Shown here: piece by piece, positions 16,658 through 57,231 of the stretch
How positions within the stretch are numbered: position 1 is the first letter of the stretch
Layout of the letters: each line of letters starts with the position of its first letter
NCBI RefSeq assembly: GCF_003073045.1
Contig: NC_037595.1
Span: 8,826,345 to 8,890,344, forward strand
Source: Pomacea canaliculata
Lineage: Eukaryota; Mollusca; Gastropoda; Architaenioglossa; Ampullariidae
Reading direction: 5' to 3'
Length of the DNA: 64,000 nt
Translations under genes and position numbers: made by a program
Notes under the pieces: model-generated
Told to the model about the DNA's origin: nothing
Databases searched by the model: none
What the model saw: the letters and a program-made list of their open reading frames with translations, nothing else

Positions 16658-19600
16658 TTAGTTGCGAAAAAGATTTAGCATGATTGCTGTCCCAATGGCA
16701 GCAAAACTGACAAACCCTGCACACACAGGTAACAGATGACTATGCATCAATGGTTCAGAAAGAGTGGGTGGCTTACTATTTTCAGTATCTACACCTTGAG
16801 CAGCATTGCCATGAATCCCCTCTGCTGTCATTGCCGGATCAGCAGGCATTATTTCTTTCACACTCTCACCTCCAAGGTTTGTCTCTGGCACATTAAAACC
16901 ACCATCTACAGGTCTTGATATTGCCTCAAAGAATGCCTGTTGATGTTCAGAGCTGTCTGGAGAAGGGTCACGTCTATTTCCACTGTTTGGGATGTCTAGG
17001 GGCTCAGCTTCCTGAAGCTGGTGACCTTCTACAGGTGCAGTATTAATGCCATCTGGAAAATCAGTCTCATCTGTTTGAGGCTTATCCACTCTAGCTGTTT
17101 GAGTTGGTAAAATTGAATCTATAACTGCATGAATCAAAGGTTTTGTTTCTTCTGAGGAGGAGGATGTTGCACTATAGCCTGAAGGATGAATGCCAGCCTA
17201 GATGAAAAACATACAACCACAACAAACAATAAATTTAACTTTTAAACTATGGAAAACACCAATACTTTTAAATAATAAAGAATAATAAAGAAATTTTATA
17301 ACATGTCATTTATCTACATAGGCTGAAAGCACAGAAATGAATGAAAATATATACATAGTACAAGGCACAGAATACCTTACATGACTCATGATCTAGTCCT
17401 CTGGTAAATCAAACTTTAGCCAGAAGCTTTGCCAAAAAAATTAAGCATGTCTTAATCTGCTGTTTAAAGAATGAGAGTTAGAGGAACGTGGTGGAAGAGA
17501 ATTTGAAACTTGTGGTGCCTGGTAGCAAAAGGACTGTGTACACTACAGGTTAACAGGTAAAAAAAAAACACCGGAAAGCTTTTCCCATGTTGACTTCCTT
17601 TCTAGATGAATCACAGCCTATAAGAGATAGAAAAGTTAAAAGAAAGGCTGCTGTCAAAATGATGATATGCCCTAGCTGCTCATTTGTACTCAATCCTCTC
17701 CTTCACAGGTAACCTATGCAACTATTCCAATACTAAAATACTTGTGAAGGGCAATTCTGCAGACATAATTTTGGATGAACTGAAAAATATAGCATTACAG
17801 CAGTCCAGCTGGGATTTTATGTAACAATAGTTAACCTTGAGCATCACATAGGCTAACTTAATTTGATGCAGATACTGCATCGCCTCTTTGAGGTTAGTAA
17901 TTTTTGTTTTTTTCGCACAAAATTCGAAAGCCAGATTAATGCTTGGGGAGTTAACACCAAGGAGATTAAAAGTCATTTCTTTACTTTAAAAAAACCCCAT
18001 GGAATTAAAAAGGATAAAACATAAACATTTAACATTTTCAATATTTTCCAGTGATCTTTGCCACATATCAAAGAAGTTTGGAAAAAACTGGTGTATCTAC
18101 TTCCATACCCACATGGGTTATCAGAATTATGAATAAATAGGACCAAGCAAACAGCACACATCTCATACCCATCCTCCCTGTCTGATAATAAAGCCTGCGG
18201 CTTTTTCAGCAAGCAGCCTGACTGTGCAGTCAACCACAAAATTGAGCCCCCTTAATCCTGTCTGCACCATCTGCATCGTCACATGTTGACTATACAGCAT
18301 CACAGCAGCAACCTGTTAAGCAAGACACATGAACCTGCATAGTTAAATAGGTTTATAGTTTTTACATTTATATAATTATTCATCACAGAATATTAGTTTC
18401 TGAAGAATTACGCCACCATATAATTCTTTTTTTTTTTGCAGCACTGCTTCACAATGTCCATCTCTGTATGTAGTCATATTAAATGTTTAATAGCTAAATT
18501 TCTTGTGACAAGAGAAATTGCATAAAACAACCAAACAAAACCAAAACCAGAGTAGCCTCAAAATAATTTTACCTGTTGCCATCCTTCAAGATCATGTTCT
18601 AAAACTGCTGAAGCTGCTTCACGGAACTGTTCATAAGTAAACATTCCTGAAATTAGGTCAGAAACAATATATCTAGCAGCTCTTGTAAGATCACTATGAT
18701 ATCGCCGCTCAATGTCATCTCCTATGGCCATTAGGATTCGCGCAGCCTCTGTCTCAGGTGTGAGGGAACGACTATGATTGAGAGAATGGGAACTTGATGA
18801 GCTAGAAGATTGAAATTTTAGCTGCCCTGCAAAAGAAAAAATTTTTTGCACTAATAAAATAGAAGTGCCGAATCATAGGTCATGAGCAAATGTTTGTGTC
18901 TAATTTATCCATGGACACCTCCAGTTACAAGATTAATCAAAACCTTCACAGTTAGAACAAGTACTAAATGATATAATAAGGAATATTATTAAGCAACACT
19001 GTTTCACTAGAAGTGTTCTCCTAATGTCTGGTATCTCAAACTTTCATTTAAGTCAAAATTTGATATACAGTACTTTATATTATCTGAATCTAAAAGAAAA
19101 AAATCGGAAAATATGAAATGCACTTAACAAATATACATATACACACACATCCCAAACATTTAACTCTATCTCTATTAGAAACACAAACATCAAAGACTAA
19201 AAATGAATATTATTTTAGAATCAGCACTAGCCTTCAACTCCATCATCAAACTCTGATTCAAATGATGAGATCTCTTCATCCAGCTCCCTGTAGAAGGAAA
19301 GCAGATGTTGATTCAAAGGGGGTGCTTCCTGGTCACTCAGCAGATTAAGGGAGAGTCTCGATCGATCAAACCTCGGTCTGCTGCGATCACCACTGGCCCC
19401 TTCCTCAACCTCCCTTGATTCCCCCACTTCAGTTACATCTGAATCTTGGAGAGTGGTTTTTCTGCTTCTGAAAGGAATGTCTGCATCCTCATCTGACTCC
19501 TGTTGAGAAGTTATTAGCAGCACATCATCACCGTCCAATCCATCCAGGTCTCCAATTTGGAAAAGTCTGCCCCGACTCTGATAATTCCCACCTGGGTCAT

Positions 19601-21760
19601 CACGTTCAAAGCCATGCACGTTAAGTAAAGGCTTATCTTCTAGAATGATCATTTCAGGACTAATAGCATCTTCTGTTCTAGTACTTGGCACCAGTTTTCC
19701 TGTTTTCTGATTCTGTGAACAACTCTGTTCCTGAAAGGTCTACCAACTCAGCTTCACTGGGAAGTGTGGGAAGCCTCTCAGAATGTACATTGGTCAACCG
19801 GTTTTTGAAACTGATGCTTGTGACACTGCCCAATTGACTGGATTCAAAGGAAGAGTCCAGCTCATCATCTGCATCACTGTTGTAAGTGCTTGGCTCACTA
19901 CTGTCTGTATTCTGGCTGATGCTTCTCATAAAACCTTCAGTCTGAACATTTTGCAATAACTTGGGTCGAAAATCATGTGACGCTGTTGCTGGTGACTTTC
20001 GATTTGTACGTTTAGTTATAGGCATAACTCTGAAAAAATGTGCATCTTTGAGATCGGGTGAAGATTTGTTGTCTTTTGTTCTGGCAAAGTGGGTGCGGTT
20101 TGCTTCCACCAGGGGATGATGGCACCGATTGGGATTTATTATCCTGCCATCTTTGTCTGATTTTCTGAGTCTGATTCTTTATTTTCAAATGATGCTCAGA
20201 TTCTGAAATGTTTGACAAAGAAGTTTGTGAATGGCGCAGGACATTTTGTTCTGATGCTGTTTGCTGCAAAAACTGCAGGACAACATACTTCGTCTTCTTC
20301 ATGAATGTATCATCAAGGACAGGGTCTCCAATGGGCTGCGAGTCCCCTGAGCTTGGTGATTGACCACCATACTCTGGCGTAAGATTATTATCAGTCTGAT
20401 GAGCAGTGAATGTACTACCAGCGGGAATATCATTACCAGAGTCTTGAAAGGGGACCTCCTCAACATCATTTGGAAGTGTCAGGCTGACACTGACAGGAGT
20501 GTCAGAACCAGGTGCCTGACTTGTGATAAAAGCACTAGTCAGAGTTTGTGAAGCTGCTTCACCATAAGTTTGAAGCTCCCCTTCTGCATTCACAAGACTG
20601 TCACATGTCAGGCTCTGATGGATCTGACTCTGAGGTGTTAAGAAAACCCCAGAGTCACTTTGATGCATACATGTAGTCTGATCTTGAGCCAATGAACTAT
20701 CTCCAACCACATCTTTCTGACCTGGATCACTTGTATGCTTCAAGTTAAGGGCAAGACCAGGGGTTGCATTTTCTGTTGTCATGCTGGCTGGTCAGTAAAT
20801 GCACTTGTAAACTGTTGTTGTTCTTCCATGTGCCTGAAAATAATTATTTTCAAACAAAACTCAATAATGCATTCTAATCTGCATCCTAAAACACCCTTTT
20901 CAAAAGTTAATCTATTGCTGTGCAATCTAAATTCTTATGCTGAAGTGCTTTTTGTGTTTTGAAAACAATACTTCGACGTGAGAAAAGATAGAAACACAAA
21001 TTTCAACGAAAGTTTGCAAGTGCATTTTTTCATAATGATTTCTTTTTAATTTGCTAACAGTTTAATAAGGAGCGAAATATGATAATATGTTCAAGTCCTT
21101 TGTAACTTAGATTGTATACCAACATGGATTCTGATCCGTTCTTTTTTCATTGTTGTATTTCATAATTGTTTTTATGACATTTATATAAAGTTTTAAAAGC
21201 CCATTCACAATATGATTATATATAATGATTTGTGGGCCAAAGGACAATTTCTGTCCTTGACTATGCCTTGCACAGACAATAAAGATTGACTGACATAATC
21301 TTTAGATGGTAAATTTATAAATTGTTATAATTATAGTATACATTATATTCCAAACTTTTTACAACTACTGTCATAATCAGAGCACTTCATTTCCATATTA
21401 AAGAACATTATGTAACTGAGTTATACTCCATAGAGGAATCGTGTGATTGCTCATCGTTAGAGCAATATTTAGTAACTAATTGCTAATACTATACTTACTA
21501 TAATTATATAAGCGCTGCAAGCTTTCTTTCCGAAATTTCGACAAACTAAGACGCTTCGATTGTTTTACTAACATTCAAAGTTAATCTGGTTTGTATGTCA
21601 AAACTGCTTATTCTCAAACAAAAATGTCTTACTTAGGTCGCTCCAGAATCTATCGAGAATGACATCAGCAACCCAAAGTCTCTCCCAACAACAACGCTGT
21701 CCTCAAGGAAGTTAAGTTAGCAGCGAAACGAAACTTGCGCTAAACGTCACCACACTTTGT
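16658..21760 (-). CDS. BCL2L13: BCL2L13 (Bcl-rambo) homologue, mitochondrial Bcl-2 family protein
   Basis: Coding exons on the minus strand: 20782-19232 (within exon 20834-19232), 18826-18573, 18312-18169 and 17197-16658, with a non-coding first exon ending at 21633. About 828 residues. Landmarks shared with human BCL2L13, in order: TKYVVL (residues 164-169), LDEEISSFESEFDDG, a BH3-like ILMAIGDDIERRYH, FTYEQFREAASAV with GW in place of the usual BH1 NWGR, and FIIRQGGW at the BH2 position. A linker of about 150 residues and a C-terminal membrane anchor (CAGFVSFAAIGTAIM, then LNLFRN) follow. The family sits in the mitochondrial outer membrane and acts in apoptosis and mitophagy (known for vertebrates). 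The disordered N-terminal half is much longer than in human. An in-frame TGA precedes the ATG at 20782. The large exon changes frame twice (+1 each, near 20150-20030 and 19735-19680). The first intron after it is GC-AG. Confidence 0.88.
20779..20829 (-). promoter_or_regulatory. Upstream ORF overlapping the BCL2L13 start
   Basis: In the 5' part of exon 2 an ATG at 20829-20827 opens a 16-codon frame (MEEQQQFTSAFTDQPA). Its TGA (20781-20779) overlaps the main ATG (20782-20780) as ATGA. Such an overlap could allow termination-reinitiation or dampen translation of the main frame. A second uORF (MSFSIDSGAT) lies in exon 1 at 21665-21633, and its TAA forms the last three bases of that exon. Both depend on the exon 1 to exon 2 splice inferred from donor ctaa|gtaaga and acceptor attttcag. 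Confidence 0.5.
21180..21295 (+). mobile_element. Possible 3' tail of a retroelement
   Basis: GGGCCAAAGGACAATTTCTG is followed by TCCTTGACTATGCC and ACAATAAAGATTGACTGAC. The pattern GGACAATTTCTGTCC ... GACAATAAAGATTGA is a frequent 3'-end signature of invertebrate LINE/SINE copies. It lies in the first intron of the BCL2L13 homologue. No coding part is present. Confidence 0.35.
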
Positions 21761-21869
21761 GGTCACGAGACGCGTTCACTTCCGGTGTTGTCGTACGTGG
21801 AGAAATTAGTGACAAAAGTACCTTCCTTCTGCCGGTGCACACCTACTCCTGCTAGCCTTATCCACGAAA
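21634..21869. promoter_or_regulatory. Bidirectional promoter, BCL2L13 / ATP6V1E
   Basis: The interval lies between the minus-strand exon 1 donor (21633) and the plus-strand ATP6V1E start codon (21870), and contains both 5' UTRs. An ETS-type site, CACTTCCGGT, lies at 21777-21786. There is no TATA box at a useful distance. GC content is raised compared with the flanks. Exact start sites are not visible from sequence. Confidence 0.65.
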
Positions 21870-24800
21870 ATGGCTCTAAGCGACCAGGATGTTCAGCGGC
21901 AGGTAAAAACTTGATCACTAAGTGCTACGTATTCCTGGTAGAAAATTCTTTCAAATTATATGATTTCCCAGTGTGGGTGGTTTCGTTTAGCATCAGTCAT
22001 CAAATGTCCACATCCTGCAGTTATCGTCGTCACCTGATCATATGACTGCTGATTACTTTTTCAAGCACTGCATTTTGAGTATTAAAGGGAGAATGTTAAA
22101 AAACCCAAAGAATTTATCTGATTATTTCATATTAAAACGTGGAGTTCTTTCTTTTTCTTCTCATGCTTTACAGCGAACCGCAGTTTTGCCTGATAAATAA
22201 TCTTATTTATTTATCACTTCTAACAAATTTTTGTATCAAAAGAAAATTCACTTATTTAGTAAATTTATGTGGAAGGTTAGAGCAGAGATTTCTGTTCCTA
22301 ACACATTTGCCTGTTTTCGCTATGTTTGCTTCTTATAAACTCTCTCTCTCCATCCTCTTTCCAAGTTATCGGCAACTCCCATCCTGTGGGCTACCACATT
22401 AAATAATTCATTTTTGCAGTCAGTTTTCAAATTTCGACCTCTCTTCACATTACATTAAATTGCAAGGTCATATTAAACCAGCAATGTCAAATGAGTACTG
22501 AGTGATTTTTATTTCTAGGACAATAACTACAAGGTCATATTAAACTATTAATTGTCATAACAGTACTTAGAGATTTGTTATTTTTACTTGGCAGATATAA
22601 CTTTAAAATGACATCCAAAACTAACTGTGCAGCAATGTCCTTTAATTTATTGTGAAATTTTGTCATTAACATCGACAGTTAACTACTATTATTACAAATT
22701 AAGATCGGTTGTAGGACACATACAGATACTTTAACAATTTTTGTCAGCTATCTTTTTAAGTCTTTTTAAAAATTGTTGTAGCCATGTTACAAATTGCATT
22801 TTTTTTAAAGCAAGAGTCATCAAAAAAAGTTATGCATAAAAAGAAAAGTTATTTGTTAATGCCTTGTACTCTGTTGATTATAAAGGAGTTAAAGAACTGT
22901 GATGCCTGTGACATTTTCATAATAAAAATTACAAATGATACATGATTAATATAGTAATTTTTACATCATTGAAAACCATTAGATTTATTTTTAATTTTCT
23001 TTTACCTTAGTCAAGAGTTTTGCAGTGGTGATGACGTTTTGTCACTTGTGATTACAAGGGAGGTAACAAGTCTCTGACAAATATATATTCTCTCCCCTAG
23101 ATTAAGCATATGATGGCCTTCATTGAGCAGGAGGCCAATGAAAAAGCAGAGGAAATTGATGCGAAGGTAAGGTAGTTGTTATCATTATAATATTATTATT
23201 TAAATATGATGCATTCTTTGCTGATTTAAAAAGAAAACAAAACTGTTAGTGTTTGCTGATATTTTTCTAGCATTGATGTTATGACTGTCTCATCCAATCT
23301 GTATAATCTGATTTAATTGTGATGTCAATCAAATACAGGCAGAAGAAGAGTTTAACATAGAAAAGGGTCGTCTGGTGCAACAGCAGCGTGTAAAAATCAT
23401 GGAGTTCTATGAACGAAAAGAAAAGCAAGTGGAGCTTCAAAAGAAGATGTAAGTGTTCACATTTTTTTGTGTGCATGTACATATGTGACTGAATAAGAAA
23501 CATGCTCACAAATGTGCATTTCATATTCTTAGTATATTTTGATTATTTCAGCAGGTTACACAAGGGATTTTTGTTTTTAAAAAAAACTTCTTTCAGATGG
23601 TTAGAAATATGCACTTCTGGAAACAGATTTTGTCATTTCTGTGTCTTTCAGTCAAAGTTCCAATCTGTTGAATCAGGCTCGTCTGAAAACTCTAAAAGCA
23701 CGTGACGACCATATCAAGGTATGCACCCTGCATTAGACATAAGCTAACAGATTGTATGTGTGGCCTGGGTGGGGTGGGTCTATAGTCTGTGTATTTATGT
23801 GTATGTAGTTTCCTTTGTGTGTTTATTTTTACACGTAGGTGCTTAGTGTTGTGTCTTTGTGATATTTGTTTTTCTATATGTTCACATTGTACAAGGTTAG
23901 TCAAAATTATGTTAACACTTAAATGATAAAACCACATTTTACAATGCATATATAGTTCAAGATGATTCACAGGATGATCTTAACCTGTTCATCATCGTGT
24001 TCAGCTCACAAAAACCAGCGAGCAACCTTACCATTTAAAGCTGAATAGATGATACCACAGTCACTCTTGTGTTAATATAATTTTGACTAACCTGTATTTG
24101 GCAGACAATTCAGTTTGTCCAGAAAGTATTTCTCATTACCACAACTGTAACATTTTAAATCATTAAAATTTTGTGACACAATCATTTGTTTATAATGTAG
24201 TATATTATAGTACAATAGTGTTTTTTAATTTAAAATATTTTTATTAGCTATATATTCATACTTCTAAGATTTCATTATTTAGCATATTTCTGTTTCCTTT
24301 AACTGTGTGAGAGGAAGGAGTGGTTTTCTTGTATGCTGTACTAGTATTCCTTTGAAATCTTGTCCTGTAAGATCAATGTTAATCCTACACATTTCTTTTT
24401 AAATCATATTATGCATGTTATTTCACATTAGTCTGTATCATTGCTCTCTGCATACATCTTTCGCAGATTATAGTTGAAGAGGCAAGAAAGCGCCTCACAA
24501 AAGTGACAGATGACAAGCAGCAGTATAAAAATGTCCTTACTGGGTTGATTGCACAGGTAGTGCCACTTTCTGCTTTAGGATGTGTAAATAAACTGTGGAA
24601 GTTACATGTAATCTAAAATGATTTGCAGTATAATCTGCCTAACTGAGTTGATATGATAAAGTGTTGTGATTGCATCCTGCTTGAAGTTTTTTTGACAACA
24701 TGTGTTGATGTATAATTGCACAAGCATTTCTACATATTTGTTATATTGCCATATAGTAGAAACTACCAGTGACTGGATAATCTAAAGTCTGTCGTGGGTT

Positions 24801-26286
24801 AAGTTTTGTGTTTTGAGAATTTTCAAGCAAAAGCTATGTGTATTGCTTTTTTCAACTGGCTTCTTCATTAAATCATCTGTGTGTGTGTGTGCACGAATGC
24901 ATGCATGAAATGAATGTGTACATTTTTAGTGTCTATACCAATTGTTGGAGCCTAATGTAACACTGCGGTGTCGTGCCAAAGATGTAGACCTGGTTAAGGT
25001 AAGAGATTTGCCTTCATCTGAATTTGCTGTTTTATAAGTGAATGAGAATATACATATATTACTTATATCAGTTCTTAATTTGTCCTTTTTTCCACCAACC
25101 AAAACTTTCAGTCTAGGTTTCTTTTTTCTTTTTTTTCTCTTGTTTAAAGAAGTCTGTTGTGTTTTAACTTTGTGGCAATATTGAAATTTGTTGGAGTCAG
25201 CAATCTGTGGAAGTGATAGTACACTTTTCATATTAAAAATAAGGATGCTTTAGATTTTTTACCTTTCAGAAAACAAAAATATAAGCAATTGTAATACTTC
25301 AGCTGTGATCCAACTTATAAACTAAAGTGGATTTTATCTCTAGGATGCCCTAGGACCTGCCATTGAAACTACAAGAAGGCAACAAAAGGAACAAAAGAAG
25401 TAAAGGTCACCCTGGACACAGAAAACTATCTGGGTGATGACATGTACGTTCTTATTTTTAATCACTGGGCAACAGTTACTGTTGAAAGTTATACTTACAT
25501 TTACATTTTTATTATAATAACTTGGAAGTGTGCAGTCAAGATGCAAATCATCGTGTACTATGTTATGCAGTAGTTTTGGAATGTATGGTTTTAAAAAATA
25601 TCTGATTTGACATTTGTTACTAAGTGTGATACCATTTTGTCTTTGTGCATGTGCTTGTATTCTATTGTTTTCGATCTGTTCCCATTTCAGATCAGGTGGT
25701 GTTGTTTGTTCAAGTCGCAGTGAGAAAATTACAGTTTACAACACCTTGGACAGCCGGCTAGATCTCATTTGCCAGCAGGTACATTGTAGATTGTATTCTT
25801 GATCTTTAAATTTATGCATTTGTGTACTTAAGTATTATGTAATAATTGCATGAGGAATAATAGTTTTCTCTATGATTCAAATATTTTATCTGTTGCCTAA
25901 TTAGTTTAATTAGCAGGCATTTTGGTCTTGGTACAGAGCATGGGTCTAACTAATGATTGGCTTTCTTGTGTGGGTTTGTTGCCTGGAAGATATTCTACAA
26001 TAATGTTATAATAACATTTTGCACTTAAATGACTCACTGATAATTCTTTTCTAATGCACTTGCTTGTTAGTTTTCAGGCTGAAAACAAAATTATAGGACA
26101 GAGCCTTCTATATGTGTTGCTGCAGCTAAGCTTAAAAGGTTACTTGATGTTGTGAACATGGTAAAGGTCTTGACAATTGCTAAAGCAGCTTACTTCATTT
26201 CTTTTTTTTTCTTTTTTTTCCAGATGCTGCCTGAGCTGAGAGACATTCTTTTTGGCCACAACCCCAACCGGCGTTTTATGGACTAA
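21870..26286 (+). CDS. ATP6V1E: V-type proton ATPase subunit E
   Basis: Nine exons: 21870-21902, 23101-23166, 23339-23448, 23652-23718, 24467-24556, 24930-24998, 25344-25443, 25691-25778, 26224-26286. All have GT-AG borders and matching phases. The product, about 228 residues, fits the family's usual ~226. It starts [20 protein letters not shown] and has the diagnostic [44 protein letters not shown] and a C-terminal [12 protein letters not shown]. Subunit E pairs with G in the peripheral stalks joining the V1 sector to V0 for proton pumping. Exon 7 as written runs into a TAA. One more base in the AAA at 25366-25368 restores [19 protein letters not shown], which matches the family, so a one-base loss (probably an assembly error) is likely. 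The start codon is 33 bases from the first donor. Confidence 0.96.
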
Positions 26287-39300: not shown

Positions 39301-41215
39301 GAAGATGCTGCGGTGAAAGTGGAAATTCTAGATTGTTCACCGGGATTGGTAAGTAGCCACAAACCAGCGCACATATAATTCACTGCATGCCCCCATCATC
39401 TCTCACACAAGCACACACACACACACAGACGCGCGCGTATTACACACGTTCACCAACACGAAGGATCTGTCCTGTGAAAGGATGGAAAAAAAACACTTTT
39501 CACCTGCCTTGTTTAAAGACCATCAAAAAAACCTCACGGCGCTGGCTTAAAGACATTCGTCTTCATTTATTTTCCGTTTGCCTGAGAAATACCTGACAAA
39601 TACAAGTCCCTCCTTGGAGATTGCACGAGACCTGGCATGAGGTGATATGTTCGTGACAAGAGCCGCGAGTTGGTCTCGTGTCTCGAGCTGATATCACCTG
39701 CGCCCCTCCCACTTTCGCCGCCTTGTCAAGTGCACTCTCCTCGGCCTGAACTGACCGAGGGTTGACCGCATCGCAGAGTAGCTTTGCTGAGCGATCAGTC
39801 ACGCGCGTTCGCCCCACCCCTACCACTACCTCAGCCACTGGTTTACTCTGTGTGTACGTGCGTGTGTGTGTCTGTGTGTGTTAGATTCAATGAACTTTAT
39901 TCATTAGGACATTGGCCCATTTCAAGTGATTAGTGGATTTACACATATATAAAGAGATAAGCTTTGAGCCATAAATAGCCAAGAATCACAACAAGCGAAT
40001 ACTTTACAAACTGCTAACAACTGCATTTACGACTCTATCTTACAGTCCAGTTTACATTACTCCCATTCATAAAACACTTACGAATTTCAAATGCCATAAA
40101 AACAAATAGCCCTGTGTTGGCCAGGATTTTAGCCCTGTGGTAATAAATAATGTTGCTAACTTATACACGGCCATCTACAAAACTTGATGAGAATGATTTT
40201 TGCTCGAGTACTTGCATATGCCACACACACACAAAGTGGCTGACTTCTCGATGTTTATGGCAGAATGGGCAGTTACAATCCGTAAAAACAAGGCTAACTA
40301 AATGAGATTTTAAATGTGAGACGGTTAATCACAAGAGAGAGAGAGGGGAGGGGAGCGAAGATGTGTTGGTCTCAAAGGAAGGAGAAAATAAGGACTCATT
40401 TAACAATCATCACCCCTAACTTCTCTTGGATGAACAAGAAGTGTTGTATCGGAATCAATTTGGGTAGGAATAGTTTAGGAAAATGAAAATATTGACCTTT
40501 AAATATTTTTTTTCTTCAAAACAATAACTTTGTTGCTTTCTTCTGTGGTGTTGCTCGAAAACTATGGCGAAGTATCTTACCCAATTGATTAAGTGAATTT
40601 ATGCAAAGCAATCTTGTGAAACATAAATGAGATCTTACTTTAGTTAGACAGGTAACTTTCTAGCGCTTGTCACCTCAAAACAAATCGAAGTTTGTTGCAT
40701 GTTAACCGCTGTACATCCGTTATCTCGCTGCATGGTGTGTCCCACAGGATTCCAGCAACTGTCGGCATCTGGAGGTGGCTGACGCCTTAGTGATCGTCTA
40801 CAGCATCGTGGACCGCGACTCCTTGAAGGCCGCAAAGACGGTCTTGGAGCACCTGAACAAGCGCGTGCACGGCGCCATCCCTGTTCTGCTGCTGGGCAAC
40901 AAAACGGACCTGGAGCACGCCCGGCAGGTGGCGCGCGATGACGTCACGCTGCTGGCGCACCAGTTCAAGTGCAGCCACTGCGAGGTGTCGGCCGCGGAGA
41001 GCTTCAGTCCCGTCAACTCCATCATGCAGCAGTTGCTGGAGGACGGCATCCAGTTCCGGCGGACAAGGGTCGGGCAGGTTAAGAGAAGGAAAAGCATCTT
41101 TGAGAACGTTTCCCGCAGACTGGGAAGCGTCTTCAGGAGGAAGAGCCTGGAAGGATCTCCTCCCAAACGCAAAGCTCCTCACGTGACCAATAACATTAAC
41201 AGAAGATCCGTGTGA
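33336..41215 (+). CDS. RERG-like small GTPase with degenerate switch regions
   Basis: Four coding exons: 33336-33399, 34610-34667, 39272 (or 39297)-39348 and 40748-41215. The start MKTTTSGLKIVILGASKVGKSA gives an intact P-loop (GASKVGKS). VRFLTKRFIGEY is almost identical to human RERG. NKTD of GNKTDL supports guanine binding. The usual DTAGQ becomes DCSPG with no obvious catalytic Gln, and the switch I threonine is not evident. The C-terminus is strongly basic (VKRRKSIFENVSRRLGSVFR) and has no CaaX box, as in RERG. So binding of GTP is likely, and hydrolysis is doubtful (inference). The exon 2/3 junction is odd: the strong acceptor at 39271 needs phase 1 but exon 2 ends in phase 2. Either there is one extra G at 34667/34668, or the in-frame acceptor at 39296 is used, which deletes part of switch I. 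Confidence 0.85.
36730..36830 (+). mobile_element. tRNA-derived SINE head, degenerate
   Basis: GTCCGGTAAAGCGCGTGCC ... ACAGTGAAGATCGGCAGG, then TTGTGAATTCAACTCTCGC and CTTCTGGCACACATTATTTC, resemble a tRNA body with a decayed B box. A similar arrangement occurs at 49220-49320. No poly-A tail is clear. Confidence 0.4.
38700..38870 (-). mobile_element. SINE copy (minus)
   Basis: Read on the minus strand: GAATGGATACCTGACTCC, then ACACTGGGGAAGGTAAAGC and AACGAGGAGAGAAG. This is the same body as the copies at 7913-8100 and near 44890. The tRNA-like head is weak or missing. Confidence 0.5.
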
Positions 41216-45401: not shown

Positions 45402-47670
45402 TCATTCCAGTGTTCTTTTCGAAAGACAGAAAGGCTCCAGAGTTTGGTAAAACTGTTCTATCCTCGCTCTCAGCACCGGATGTACGGCTCCACGATCCGC
45501 TGTCCGTAACGGGCGATGGTTCTGCTCCACCAGCCGCTGTAGAAGTCGTTGCCGAGCATGCTTAGGGAAGATCACCGCCACCTTCACTTGCTTGCGCGAG
45601 TCGCCCATGGCAACAGGGGTCTCCATGGACAGCCTCTGTAGCAATCTCTCGCGGCGTGAGGTGTAGAAGGGGTCAGCTTTGTACCGGTCCTGTGGCCGCA
45701 CGTAGTTGAAGATTTTGTGGCCTCGGAACAGTGTGCAGTCGTCTGAGTCGACGGAGTCTCTCCTGATGTACGTGCGGTGTCCAGATCGAGCAGAGGGCGA
45801 AACTACTTCGTTATCGTTGTCGTCGTCAGCAACAGCAACAGGCTGCTCAGGCTGTTTAGGTGACATTTCCGTGTTTTCTGTCTTGATGAGTTTTGTGTCC
45901 ATGTCTTTATTCAGTTTCGAAGATGATGAAGTTGTTAACCCATCTGTGTCAGAAGGGTTGATCGAGGTGTTAACTTCAGAAATCACAGCAATGGCGGGAT
46001 ATTTTTCTGTGTCTGCAAGACGATGCATTCTCTGTTCCTGAGGTCTTGTCTCTGGATGGCGGGTCTTTCTGGCACGATCAAAAATATCTTTCTTGGATTC
46101 TGCTTCACGAGATTTCTTAATATCTGCACTCGACAGTTTTGATGAGCTCTTCAGCCCAGTCTGGTCAGATGACTGGTCAGTTCCATCAAGACTGGGTGTT
46201 TTGGAGTCAGTGTAAGTGACTAACAACATGCCTAGGGACGTTTGAGCGCTGGGGTCAACATTCACCTCTTGCAAGTTTTTCTCTGTCTTACCCGACACCT
46301 CGGCAGGAACTGACTCAGGTATGACTGACAGCTCATCTGGGTCATTCTCCATGAAGTTTCCTTCACGGCTGCGCGGTTGTCTTTTAATCTTGTCTGCAAG
46401 AATCATCAAAGGCGTTTCGGTAAGGGAATTCTCTAATATACCAGAATACTGAGGAGAACGAGGACATTATCAGCTATTTTATCTTCTCTTGACCCATTTT
46501 CACGTCCTAGTGGAGAATCTTTGGTAGAAGCATCTCCTGGTCTATCAAAGCTGGTTGCGCGGTATGGAAGGTATGCATATTCATTGTCTTCTGTCAGATG
46601 TTGCTGTGTATCCAGGTCCTGTATGTTATAGTTATTTTCAGAAGCATGCAACTCCAAATGTTCGCGTGCTGGTATGTCCCGCTCGGCTATTGTCTCTGTC
46701 AGAGTCCGTTCTTGCCCGTCACTAGCATCTGTTTTTGCCGAGTCCAAATTGTTCGCTTTGAAGTCCGGCAAGAAACTATCGCCGACCGAATTCTCGCGAG
46801 TTTCATCACGTGACAGAGGTAGCAGCTGATCTGCACTCACTTCCTGCTGAGTTAGTGTAATGTCAGAAATCCCAGAACTTTTGAAGAAGTCCCCGTAAGA
46901 ACTACGCTTTGCACAGCCGTGTACCGTTGAGGGTCGAAGAGAAGTTTCTTGGCCTCGAGTCACGAGCATCGATGTTCGAGGTCGATTTTCTGGACCCTTT
47001 TTGCTGCTGACCACGGCTCGAAAACGGACGCGAGGAAGCCCCTTGGAACTCGAGTGGCTCGAGCGGCACCCGTCGCTGGTTCGCCGCGCATGGCTGGAAG
47101 AGGTTACGCGGCCGCCAGGCTGACCTTTATCCTCGCCTTCGCTGATGTCCGAGGCGGACCGCGACCTGTCAGTGACGTAGCGGAGGAACAACGTGGCGGC
47201 CTGGCTGCGAGCAGCTTGTGCTGCTTCGTTGTACAGGGAATTGTGGGACGTCTCGGAATACGCGTAGGCCCAGGGTTTCTGCAAGCGAGTCAGCGCCTCG
47301 TTGTGAAAGCTGGACGAGCGTGCCAGTTCCGTGGCCGAGAGGGATCTTGCTTGGGGCGACCCTCGTGACACCGGGTAGCCTCGGATGCCACGACCTTGAC
47401 CACAAGACGGGAAAAGAGAGGCGACGAGATGGAATCTTCTTCGTCCGGATGCTCGTTCAGGGTGGACCAGCCGGACGTCTTGGCGCTCGCGCGGCAGAAG
47501 GAGTGCCACTGGGTGATCTCCCTGTAGTGTCTGTCTCTCGCGGACTGTGCCTCCAGGTTGATCTGGCGCATGCGTGTGTCTAGCTTCCGGTCTGCATAAC
47601 GGTTTCGCGAGTAGGCCTGCATCTCGCTGTCGCTTAGAGTACGCTTGGTTTTGACTTCTGCAGCAGGCAT
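45402..47670 (-). CDS. Unrecognised protein of about 756 residues, single large exon
   Basis: The minus-strand start ATG at 47670 is preceded by an in-frame TAG eight codons upstream. The frame begins MPAAEVKTKRTLSDSEMQAY, followed by a charged segment (KLDTRMRQINLEAQSARDR). It changes frame near 47450-47400 and again near 46470-46440, each time as if one base were missing. With both counted, the length is exactly 757 codons including the stop at 45402. Middle parts are Ser/Arg/Asp rich and probably disordered. The C-terminal third has LFRGHKIFNYVRPQDRYKAD and a basic ERLLQRL...RKQVKVAVIFPK...RQRLLQRLVEQ segment that repeats RLLQRL. I recognise no family, signal peptide or membrane segment. 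GC-rich codon use against AT-rich flanks supports a real gene. Confidence 0.75.
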
Positions 47671-48543
47671 TTGAATCTTGTTTCTTAGAGACTATATATA
47701 TTTACATATATTAGCACAGTCACTGTGAGTACTGTGCAGTATCACCACGAAAGGTTAGGGGAAACAACTGCGAGAAAAAGTCACTCGTTGGCATGTAGGA
47801 CCTCGTTTTGCAGTGGTTGCCAACTTAAATGTTTTACGTGAAGCGTGTCTTTACTCTTTGTTGAAGATCAGACTAGTGCTGGAAATAATCAAGTACTTTT
47901 TTTCTGGCATGAACCATAATCCACTATCTGAACCATGATGGTGAAGGACTCTTGCACGACAGCAGTTCTCGCTTCTGCCTGTTGCCTTAGTAACGACTCA
48001 TTTTTTTAAACTTCTTGTTGCCCAAAAGTGAGCTCTGCTGATCTTGCTGCCCAGAGTGATCTGTAACAGAAATGTTCTGTGCTTCAGATTCTCTATTCTG
48101 TATGTTACAAATGAGTTATAAAGGTACCCACCTTAGTGTGTACACGTGTTATAAATTCAGCTTCTAACCGACTTTTTCTTTTCACGCATCACACGGTCTA
48201 AAAATTTCTTTGTGTGCAGACTTTGCATCTGTGTGAAAGACCTCTGCTGTCAAACAAAACAAGTTTTACAATACAGACTAGCAGAGAGCATTGCACTCAA
48301 GGAATCATGGGATCTGGCTTAGTGGTGTTCACAAGGGAGGACCTTCTTATCCGATCAGACCTGAAGCCGTTGATATTGTTGCTGCATTCTACACAATTGT
48401 AGTTGGCTAGCACAAAAAAGCGGCAAACATCTTCATTGTCGTCAACTGGTTAAAATGACACTCACTGAAACCCAGAAAACCTAAACATTCGATCAGTGTG
48501 ATTCCCTCGCGCATACATATATTCTTGTGCTCTCTCTCTCACA

Positions 48544-53147: not shown

Positions 53148-55471
53148 ATAACTTTTATTACACCTCCATGGACCTCCTCAAAGTAAGTTTTAAGAGAGTA
53201 CACAAAGGGTATTAAGAAAGCCAAGATAAGACGAAAGTACAGATTATTGCAGAGAGAAAAATGTCTGTTCCCTCAAAAGAGAATATTTGGATCGACTTGT
53301 GATGGGATTGGCTTGATTAGTTTAGGTATCTACCCACGCCAAATGTGACAGTCTCGACATTTAAAGAACTCATCACTTTGCTGACGAGCTCTGCAAGGAG
53401 CAGATTCCTATCATCTTGGATGAAAAATTGCATGCTGTGTGTTTTGAAACATTAAAAAAAAGAAAAAAAAAGAAACAATCTTAATGGAACCTAACGCTCT
53501 TTTCAACAAGACTATATGAAGAAAGGCAATAATATTACAAAGGAAGCTTCTTAACCCTTCTCTTTTTTCTTCATCGTTCAAACATTTGTATATCATTGGT
53601 TTACACTGGGGTATCAATGTTTCTGCTTAACTGGATGCAATTTGTTCTACGCATTTTATCCGGGCAGCTTGAGGTGATAAAAAAAAGCCGGAATGACAAA
53701 AGTTTCTGCGTCTGTCTTCTCTTGGCTGTAGCAGCTAACATGCACGTGTAAATCAAGATTCATTAGCTGCCTCATCATCATAATCATATGGTTGTATACA
53801 TTGAAGACATATTGATCTGGTAAGAAATAAGCCTCTCAAGAAAATTCAAATTTGTTAAATATAGGGCACTGCAGTTAATGAAAAAATTAATTTTTTTTTA
53901 AAATCCTGTCGTCAAAAAAACCTTATTTTGAATGTTAAAGAAAAGCCAAGAGAAAATTGCATTTAAATTAGCATGGCGTAATATCTATACATGCATGGCG
54001 GCCGCTCAATGATAAATGTCAATTAACAGAAATTGAAAATGGTCGACGTTTTTATGTGCCACTTGATCGAACAGATTGTCAGACCACCCCTTCTCCATTA
54101 AATGCTGTTGTGAATGAGTGGTTCTGAATATGAGAAAAATCGCATGCTATCTGACACAAACGAAAAGCTATCGGGGTCAAGATTACGGGTAGCATTCGTT
54201 TGGCAGGTGCAGTTTGGCATGTCGTCGAAGAGCCTTCTAACTTCTTGTTATTCTTTGAGTATTATTATTCATATGCTCATGACGGTTTGAGAAAGGGCAT
54301 TGAGTTTGTCCTGGTGTCCTCAAAATCTTCATATAAAATACTGTCTCTGGTGTCCTTTACCACAATTTAGTTCATTCCTACGTCCGTGTTCATTTTAATC
54401 GACAGATATTTTTATACAGATGCCTAGAGATATACTAGGATGATGGCTATTTTTAATATCTAGATAAGGTAACACATATCAGGTGATAGGTGTAGAACTG
54501 CACTTACAGATAGATACAAATTGTGTAAATAAACGTTTGCAACGCATATGCCTATTGTGTGTGCATGTGTGTGTGTGAGAGAGAGTCCCAAAGAATTCTT
54601 GAAGCTGTGTACGTTTTGTCCTCGTTTGAATGACTGAAAATAAAAAGGACTTCTTTGACGAATGGAGCTTGTCTCCTCGATTAGCGCAACTTTAAATCCA
54701 AGAGGACACAGTACGATACACGCGAGTCGGCAACAAACCGAGAGAAGAATCCGGATGCTGGTAAAATAGCTGAAAATAACTTTTGTCGCTGCTAGCAGGG
54801 GGACAGTATGATTTCATGGCAAAAATAAACCGCAGATGAAGAAAAATCTCCCCCTTCACAAAAAAAAAACCCTTATAAAATTACAAACTTTAATGCGAAG
54901 AATACTTACGTGCCACAGTGAGGTGACGAATGAGTAAATACAGTGCATATTTGTCGCTTTTTATATTTTATAAGTTTTATCAACTTTTTGAAATGGTTTA
55001 CGGTTTGTAAGCTTACTATACTTCACGGAGGTTCAACGTGTATCGGTGTATAGTGGAAAGCATTGGAGCGGAAGGTTGGTTCACACAAGGGAGGTAAATA
55101 CAAAGAGACTTTGTCAATGAATGAAAATGATAGTTGTCTCTCTTGTCATGCTCATGTCTGGAGGACACTACTTGTAACCATCAAGGATTACATAACTTTG
55201 GGATTTTTAGCATCTAGCCCTCGCTCTTAAAGTGAAAAGCATATTAAAAGAGAGGGGGAGAGAGGGATATTAACTGCTATTTCTACACCCTTGATAATGA
55301 CAGTGAAGGAATCTGAAGAATGATAAACTGATTAGAAATGTAATCAACCCTGATGTACAAAATGTAAGCTATTTCTTCCTAAATTCTTAGAGATAACGAT
55401 TAAAAATGTATAAACCTCAAGGACGATCACAAACACATGAACCTTACTAACACAAAAGAAAACAATAATAT
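53148..55471. other. Intergenic stretch without supported gene
   Basis: AT-rich, with short A and T runs and a small CA/GA tract near 54560-54585. I see no exon, RNA gene or element. Confidence 0.45.
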
Positions 55472-55544
55472 TGGTTCGGCTGGGGGTCGAACCCAGGACC
55501 TCTCGCGTGTGAGGCGAGCGTGATAACCACTACACTACCGAACC
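55472..55544 (-). tRNA. trnV-CAC: tRNA-Val (anticodon CAC)
   Basis: On the minus strand a full cloverleaf of 73 bases including discriminator A can be drawn. The acceptor stem GGTTCGG pairs with CCGAACC. TAGTGTAGTGG gives the A box and D arm. The anticodon stem CTCGC/GCGAG encloses loop CTCACAC with anticodon CAC. GGTTCGACCCC forms the B box and T arm. No intron. A T-rich run (GTTTTC, then TTTT) follows as polymerase III terminator near 55455. The sequence closely resembles animal tRNA-Val(CAC). It sits 170 bases from the SMG9 start codon and is transcribed away from it. Confidence 0.96.
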
Positions 55545-55713
55545 AGTTGAGTGTAGGGTCGAAATAAATCTACATAACTGTGATTACCATTAGCTTGTCT
55601 CCTCTCCTCCCCTCAAATACTCTTCAATGTGGAAACAACAAGAAAGGTATCATGCTTTGATTCTATGTGGTTGTCATTCAAGTGTACACTGTCCAGTCGC
55701 TTATGATTCTACC

Positions 55714-57231
55714 ATGTCTGATACGCAAGATGGAACCTATCGATGGCAAAGAAGAGAAAGGATGGGACGAGGAGGTAAGGACAAAGATTCTTCGCCAACA
55801 CCAGCTTCAAAACCTCCAGCTCCTATTATCCTGGGATTAGCACGTCCTTCAGCATCGCAGAGCCCTGACCATCAACCATTGACGAGTTCGCAGCAACCGC
55901 AGGCAACCCACGGGGACACTACACACGGTCCCTCCGATGGAAGTTACGGTGGTGCAGCCAGCGGTGGGTCAGTGGTTGGCAGCGCTACAAGCATAAACTC
56001 GCCTCAGATCCACAGAATTGCAGATAAACCTATCGTAGTGCTTAAGTCAAGAGATGACACTCGTGTCTTGCCAGCGTCCGCTTCCGCTCAAGCGCCTGCG
56101 GCGCCACAAGATATCCCACATCCCACCCCTCACCTGCCAAGCTATCCTGTGCAGCAGCAGAGACACAGCCTTTCATCCCAGCAAAATCTGGAGTCAGGTA
56201 TCGTAAATCGCCTTGCCCCGCCACCAGAAATGAAACATAGCGTTAAACTGATTGATGAAAATTTTCGATGGGTGGACGCGGGCATCGACGAACTCGTGGA
56301 ACAAAGTGATTACCTGGTTGTTGGGACTCTTGGTTTACAAGGAACAGGGAAATCAACAATTCTGTCCTTGCTAGGAGGCAATACCCCGCAAGATGCTTAC
56401 AGAAACTACATCTTTCAACCTCAGACGAAGGAGACGAGGGAGGAGGGCTCACATCAGAGCGTTGGCGTGGATATGTTTGCAACACCTGAGCGCATCATTC
56501 TGCTTGACTCACAGCCAGTCCTCAGCCCCTCCATCCTCGACTGTATGATCCGGCATGAAAAAAAGTATCCTGCTGACTACACCTCAACGGAGAATTGGAT
56601 TGAAATGCAGTCCCTGCAGATTGCAACTTTCTTAATGACAGTGTGTCATGTTATTATTGTAACACAAGACTGGTTCACAGATCTCAACTTTTTAAAATTT
56701 TTGACGACGGCAGAAATGCTGAAGCCGCAGATGCACTCAACAAGTCATGAAAGCAGCCAGGAAGATTCCACTGAGTTTTATCCAACCATTGTGTTTGTTA
56801 TGAACAAAGCAGGGTCTGATGACTTCACTCCAGAGACATATGCGAACATGCAAGTAGTTCTTGACCAGATGTTTCACTCCTCCAAGCTTAAGTATAAAGG
56901 TGCTGTCTCAATGAAAAAAGACAATATCATATCTGTGTTAAAAGCTAAGGAAGGTGGACTAGAGACAGATGTCAATCTGTTCTTGCTTCCAGTGATGGAA
57001 TATTACAAGACAGAGCCAGAATCTATTCTGAGCTACCTACCAGAGTATCGAGGCTGCCCTAGCTTTGCTTACTTGCTGCGGTCATTTCGCAACCAGGTCT
57101 ATTCAATGCCAAAAACTATGATAACACAGTCACAACTGTCTGAAAGAAACTGGTTCCATTTTGCTGCTCGCATGTGGGAAGCTGTCAAAAAGTCACAACT
57201 TTTGGCCGAGTATAACCGCCTGCTACCTTAA
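55714..57231 (+). CDS. SMG9: SMG9, nonsense-mediated mRNA decay factor
   Basis: A single uninterrupted frame gives 505 residues from the ATG at 55714 (MSDTQDGTYRWQRRERMGRG). An in-frame ATG at 55627 would add 29 residues that look unrelated to the family, so I prefer 55714. Residues 1-170 are low-complexity and Pro/Ser/Gln rich. MKHSVKLIDENFRWVDAGID begins the conserved part. GLQGTGKST (207-215) is the P-loop. QSLQIATFLMTVCHVIIV and QDWFTDLNFLKFL match human SMG9 closely, as does the C-terminal NWFHFAARMWEAVKKSQLLA. SMG9 binds SMG8 and restrains the kinase SMG1, which phosphorylates UPF1. Human SMG9 has many introns and here there are none. A tRNA-Val gene lies divergently upstream. Confidence 0.97.
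   Translation: MSDTQDGTYRWQRRERMGRGGKDKDSSPTPASKPPAPIILGLARPSASQSPDHQPLTSSQQPQATHGDTTHGPSDGSYGGAASGGSVVGSATSINSPQIHRIADKPIVVLKSRDDTRVLPASASAQAPAAPQDIPHPTPHLPSYPVQQQRHSLSSQQNLESGIVNRLAPPPEMKHSVKLIDENFRWVDAGIDELVEQSDYLVVGTLGLQGTGKSTILSLLGGNTPQDAYRNYIFQPQTKETREEGSHQSVGVDMFATPERIILLDSQPVLSPSILDCMIRHEKKYPADYTSTENWIEMQSLQIATFLMTVCHVIIVTQDWFTDLNFLKFLTTAEMLKPQMHSTSHESSQEDSTEFYPTIVFVMNKAGSDDFTPETYANMQVVLDQMFHSSKLKYKGAVSMKKDNIISVLKAKEGGLETDVNLFLLPVMEYYKTEPESILSYLPEYRGCPSFAYLLRSFRNQVYSMPKTMITQSQLSERNWFHFAARMWEAVKKSQLLAEYNRLLP

Follow-up and report, generated by a model that had tools for sequence, protein, structure and literature searches.

A head-to-head pair of ATP6V1E and a likely BCL2L13 orthologue in the gastropod Pomacea canaliculata, with a candidate shared promoter

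When two divergent genes share a promoter, one open stretch of DNA serves transcription both ways. We take human ATP6V1E1 and BCL2L13 to be divergent, head-to-head neighbours on 22q11, about 0.1 kb apart; metazoan microsynteny in general is reportedly treated by Irimia et al. 2012. Three papers put BCL2L13 and ATP6V1E1 together in one part of chromosome 22, and another terms the pair convergent, in a passage that carries no coordinates, which contradicts the orientation we assume. The initial annotation of the present locus had described the human genes as adjacent and divergent; their location in one region accords with these sources, and their divergence is our assumption. Of 1447 human head-to-head pairs, only 14 are counted as conserved across mouse, chicken and fugu, and neither fishes nor non-vertebrate animals are reported to be enriched for short divergent spacing. 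In amphioxus, 372 bidirectional promoters have been described as putatively ancestral, with enrichment for housekeeping functions (PMC6292497).

BCL2L13 itself is described as a mitophagy receptor (PMC9800997, section 7), whose human form carries the LIR WQQI in its BHNo tail (PMC9800997). BCL2L13-type genes outside vertebrates are already known: a coral gene of this type exists, the over-expression of which did not kill mammalian cells (PMC4715348), and a squid transcript has been given the name (PMC9389742). We analysed a 64,000-nucleotide stretch of the P. canaliculata genome (the window; C6:8826345-8890344), in which, as in the human and tetrapod 22q11 neighbourhood (cat eye critical region), the same two genes stand beside each other. 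They are adjacent and divergent, with splice sites and translations on opposite strands, in the orientation that had been proposed for them.

The plus-strand gene (21870..26286) encodes V-ATPase subunit E, confirming its earlier assignment. It comprises nine exons with GT-AG borders (21870-21902, 23101-23166, 23339-23448, 23652-23718, 24467-24556, 24930-24998, 25344-25443, 25691-25778 and 26224-26286), beginning with an ATG at 21870 and with a stop that ends at 26286. The vATP-synt_E domain spans the translation in two pieces, covering PF01991 positions 1-144 (8.6e-49) and 148-199 (3.1e-13) of 199, and subunit E1 chains in the PDB match at 2.3e-60. The spliced length of 686 nt implies one frame break, located in exon 7, and the reading frame is thus not uninterrupted. 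When the first 164 residues were used in a six-frame search of the snail's own genome (440,159,624 bases on 24 contigs), a search that scores best candidates only, all six matches fell at the window locus. Stray animal V1E DNA was also looked for in viral and prokaryote contigs; the 18 and 89 pattern matches, respectively, included no relative.

The minus-strand gene (16658..20833), which we call BCL2L13-like, has exons, from 5′ to 3′, at 20833-19232, 18826-18573, 18312-18169 and 17197-16658, as judged by splice sites; its main frame has a first ATG at 20782, and the stop of the gene is at 16658. The border 19232/18826 is GC-AG, and, starting at the end of the first exon, the frame is continuous across all the joins. 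Within that large first exon there are two frame breaks, giving overlapping frames at 20012-20791, 19678-20178 and 19227-19739. Because both genes carry breaks and the assembly is built from long reads, these are likely assembly errors; gene decay would be the alternative and is unlikely for V-ATPase subunit E, which has a single locus. The published assembly (440,071,717 bases, 14 large scaffolds) is described as built from PacBio reads with smartdenovo and treated with Pilon for single-base errors (PMC6129957). A 16-codon upstream frame is also present at 20779-20829 (minus strand), and its TGA overlaps the main-frame ATG; it may be either a uORF or another assembly frame break.

The two coding starts lie 1,087 bp apart (ATG 21870 versus ATG 20782), just outside the usual 1-kb definition of a bidirectional pair unless the BCL2L13-like gene does have a putative first exon that is non-coding. 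An acceptor-like site directly upstream of the coding exon suggests such an upstream exon. Its candidate donor is at 21631..21633 on the minus strand (last exon base 21633, then GT), which ranks second of 64 interval GTs under a simple splice matrix that places 21499 first; a score this high is reached by 3.0% of the minus-strand GTs in the window. The exon is a candidate drawn from sequence alone. Where the initial annotation had the genes starting within about 240 bases, the figure matches the 236 bp from the ATP6V1E ATG to this candidate donor, through the predicted exon, and does not hold for the coding starts.

Base composition divides the interval into an AT-rich part (20834-21635, GC 0.29) and a 234-bp stretch beside ATP6V1E (21636..21869, GC 0.49, CpG o/e 1.09), which we regard as the candidate bidirectional promoter, including any 5′ leaders. 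Its CpG content is unexceptional, with 15 CpGs, a number reached by 6.1% of same-size windows. The ETS-like site reported between the genes was recovered as an exact ETS/GABP-type octamer, CCGGAAGT, at 21778-21785 on the minus strand, one of two exact occurrences in 64 kb; it has modest weight because 14 motif words, including three ETS versions, were tried in the interval. In its section on BCL2L13 transcription, a review lists ZIC, FOXO, RUNX and others, with no ETS factor among them (PMC9800997, section 18). A TFEB/CLEAR link was considered separately and set aside: the closest word, GTCACGAGAC at 21762, lacks an intact CACGTG core, and four words in the 64 kb, this one included, come within one mismatch.

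We consider it very probable that ATP6V1E and BCL2L13 were inherited as a divergent pair from an ancestor shared by molluscs and vertebrates, given the human orientation assumed above, and fairly probable that they were inherited together with a shared promoter. Both genes would then be transcribed outward from one short promoter at about 21.6-21.87 kb, which an ETS factor of the GABP class would probably help to open through the candidate site. An alternative that shares the descent part of this explanation holds that the pair has separate promoters: BCL2L13 would start closer to its coding exon, and the two genes would be neighbours only passively. The 1,087-bp distance between the coding starts and the top-scoring donor at 21499, rather than 21633, are in its favour; yet the region in which BCL2L13 transcription would have to begin is the AT-rich one (GC 0.29 in 20834-21635), the GC-richer stretch is 21636-21869, and the acceptor-like site before the coding exon points to an exon further upstream. 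We regard separate promoters as unlikely. Under the favoured arrangement of one shared promoter, the pair would have been kept most likely because a break would leave one gene without its promoter, rather than through any joint function of the two proteins.

BCL2L13, as a receptor, and the V-ATPase, which brings about acidification, could meet in mitophagy. The initial annotation had suggested that shared expression ties the mitochondrial Bcl-2 protein to vacuolar acidification. It is quite doubtful that a bidirectional promoter of bilaterian or older age co-regulates the BCL2L13 mitophagy receptor with the V-ATPase stalk subunit, and that this explains a pair never separated. If such co-regulation were true, mitochondrial delivery to lysosomes and lysosomal acidification would rise and fall together. 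Should the pair be seen in more phyla, it would serve as a marker of how genomes were organised in the distant past and would offer a small promoter open to testing.

The case for descent depends on the identity of the minus-strand gene. Its C-terminal piece matches PF00452 with 41.1 bits against a cut-off of 31.4. Against seven human Bcl-2-family proteins, the snail core scored highest with BCL2L13 (35.0 bits), followed by BAK (30.6), BAX (16.2), BOK (15.2), BCL2L1 (10.6), BCL2 (4.5) and MCL1 (3.8). In the reverse direction, human BCL2L13 gave 31.7 bits with the window gene, against 14.4 for the best of seven other snail Bcl-2 sequences. The margins are thus 4.4 bits over BAK in the first direction and 17.3 bits over the runner-up in the second. 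An N-terminal stretch, TKYVVLQFL (codons at 20267..20293, minus strand), is common to the window gene and human BCL2L13; the score of the alignment containing TKYVVL was reached by 5 of 5000 shuffles, and control N-termini of five other human proteins gave 14, 24, 39, 219 and 343 of 500.

The C-terminal half of the comparison agrees. Where other Bcl-2 proteins have NWGR, the window gene has GWQQ and human BCL2L13 GWNK, and the two have [YF]II-QGGW in common. After QGGW the snail protein continues for 179 residues, made up of a linker of about 155 residues and then a terminal hydrophobic segment (19 residues with a mean hydropathy of 2.0, at 338-356 of the 361-residue piece). The gene therefore has the Bcl-2 core, TKYVVL N-terminus, long tail and terminal hydrophobic segment of BCL2L13/Bcl-rambo. 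It differs from it in having about 160 residues before TKYVVL, in the distance from TKYVVL to the core (about 370 residues when the two frame breaks are bridged) and in the tail, from which the human-form WQQI LIR is absent: the only [WFY]xx[LIV] matches there are FEAI and, inside the hydrophobic segment, FAAI. A gastropod BCL2L13-type gene with a BH4-like N-terminus is of use in asking which of the two roles, mitophagy or apoptosis, is the older.

A Pfam Bcl-2 search of the snail's own genome at E 0.1 gave ten matches, and the window gene, with a domain divided among several exons, was for that reason not one of these ten. Merging neighbouring exons and using one of a tandem pair at C6:3.41/3.44 Mb reduced them to seven sequences for a tree. 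In it, snail counterparts paired with human BAK (99/90), BAX (80.1/72), BOK (99.7/99) and BCL2/BCL-XL (94.7/81), and weakly with MCL1 (76.4/52). The window gene joined human BCL2L13 only with low support (17.7/53), and together with the C6:3.4-Mb gene the two formed a 92/86 group. On these sequence comparisons, BCL2L13 is the best name for the window gene, which is likely the orthologue of the human gene, because the scores both ways, the TKYVVL stretch, the tail with its hydrophobic segment and the separate snail relatives are taken together; the homologue named in the initial annotation is upheld. The C6 tandem pair consists of two very similar, divergent Bcl-2-family exons (C6:3405753-3405980 and 3436906-3437133), about 31 kb apart, grouping near BCL2L13.

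Structural matches might instead suggest that the minus-strand gene is BAK or another Bcl-2 relative, with a likeness to 22q11 that is superficial. The 17 best PDB chains for the window gene are all BAK (best 4.7e-7), its BH3 stretch, IGDDIERRY, resembles IGDDINRRY of BAK, and human BAK falls only 4.4 bits behind human BCL2L13. The 37 PDB matches include no BCL2L13 chain, however, so the PDB search could not choose between the two. A separate and clear snail BAK, with NWGR and GGW, is found elsewhere in the genome, at C6:23.14 Mb, and is the sequence that pairs with human BAK (99/90). GWQQ, [YF]II-QGGW, TKYVVL, the long tail and the terminal hydrophobic segment likewise speak against BAK for the window gene, and we rejected that identity; a reading in terms of BAK or another relative is very unlikely.

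With BCL2L13 as the likely identity, the simplest reading of the snail order beside the assumed human order is that both descend from the bilaterian ancestor. For P. canaliculata, the published annotation gives 21,533 gene models (PMC6129957), and by arithmetic on that number one given gene would by chance stand divergent at the 5′ end of another given gene about once in 43,000; over the 1447 human head-to-head pairs, about 0.03 coincidences would be expected per genome. That the identities are right and the human and snail pairs arose independently through rearrangement is highly improbable: no SLC25A18-type carrier or BID domain was reported among the window's scanned frames and Pex26 matches lie on C9 rather than near the pair, which would favour such an origin, but about 0.03 expected coincidences stand against it. 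The suggestion that a bidirectional promoter may date from the bilaterian ancestor keeps its identities, its divergent order and, as the simplest reading, its descent, and joint use of the promoter is what we infer.

The snail pair differs from the human and tetrapod 22q11 neighbourhood in what surrounds it. Scans of 220 out of the 236 ORFs listed for the window at a length of 62 aa or above reported neither an SLC25A18-type carrier nor a BID domain; BID gave no match in the snail's own genome at E 0.1, in a search run without a positive control, and the genome's two Pex26 matches are on another contig, C9. Because Pex26 lies on C9 and BID is without a match, the pair looks like an isolated relic. 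A bat study describes the surrounding synteny as common to chicken and Xenopus and not apparent in zebrafish; if confirmed, inheritance from the bilaterian ancestor would push this tetrapod-level dating of the block, as that passage gives it, further back for the pair.

As in the putatively ancestral bidirectional promoters of amphioxus, the snail locus combines, by its sequence, divergent orthologous neighbours, a housekeeping gene and a short interval. On our reading it would be one more of a known class, that of ancestral-looking bidirectional promoters. In the open-licence literature naming both genes, no invertebrate BCL2L13/ATP6V1E1 pair appeared in titles or abstract openings, and the two names were absent from the main texts searched on head-to-head pairs and microsynteny.

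Other features of the window lie downstream of ATP6V1E. A Ras-family GTPase fragment is found at 40706-41212 (plus strand), nearest in PDB to REM2 and Ras-like 12. Two long overlapping frames follow on the minus strand (45405-46466 and 46436-47701), which have no Pfam match; for the longer of them, the PDB gave nothing at E 1 either. At 55594-57228 (plus strand), an uninterrupted 545-aa frame, apparently intronless, matches SMG9 over residues 140-544 (PDB, 8.2e-111) and is possibly a retrogene; a tRNA-Val(CAC) lies about 50 bases before it, at 55471-55545 on the minus strand. From about 60936 onward, the plus strand carries the N-terminal exons of a CTP synthase gene (PF06418, 5e-30).
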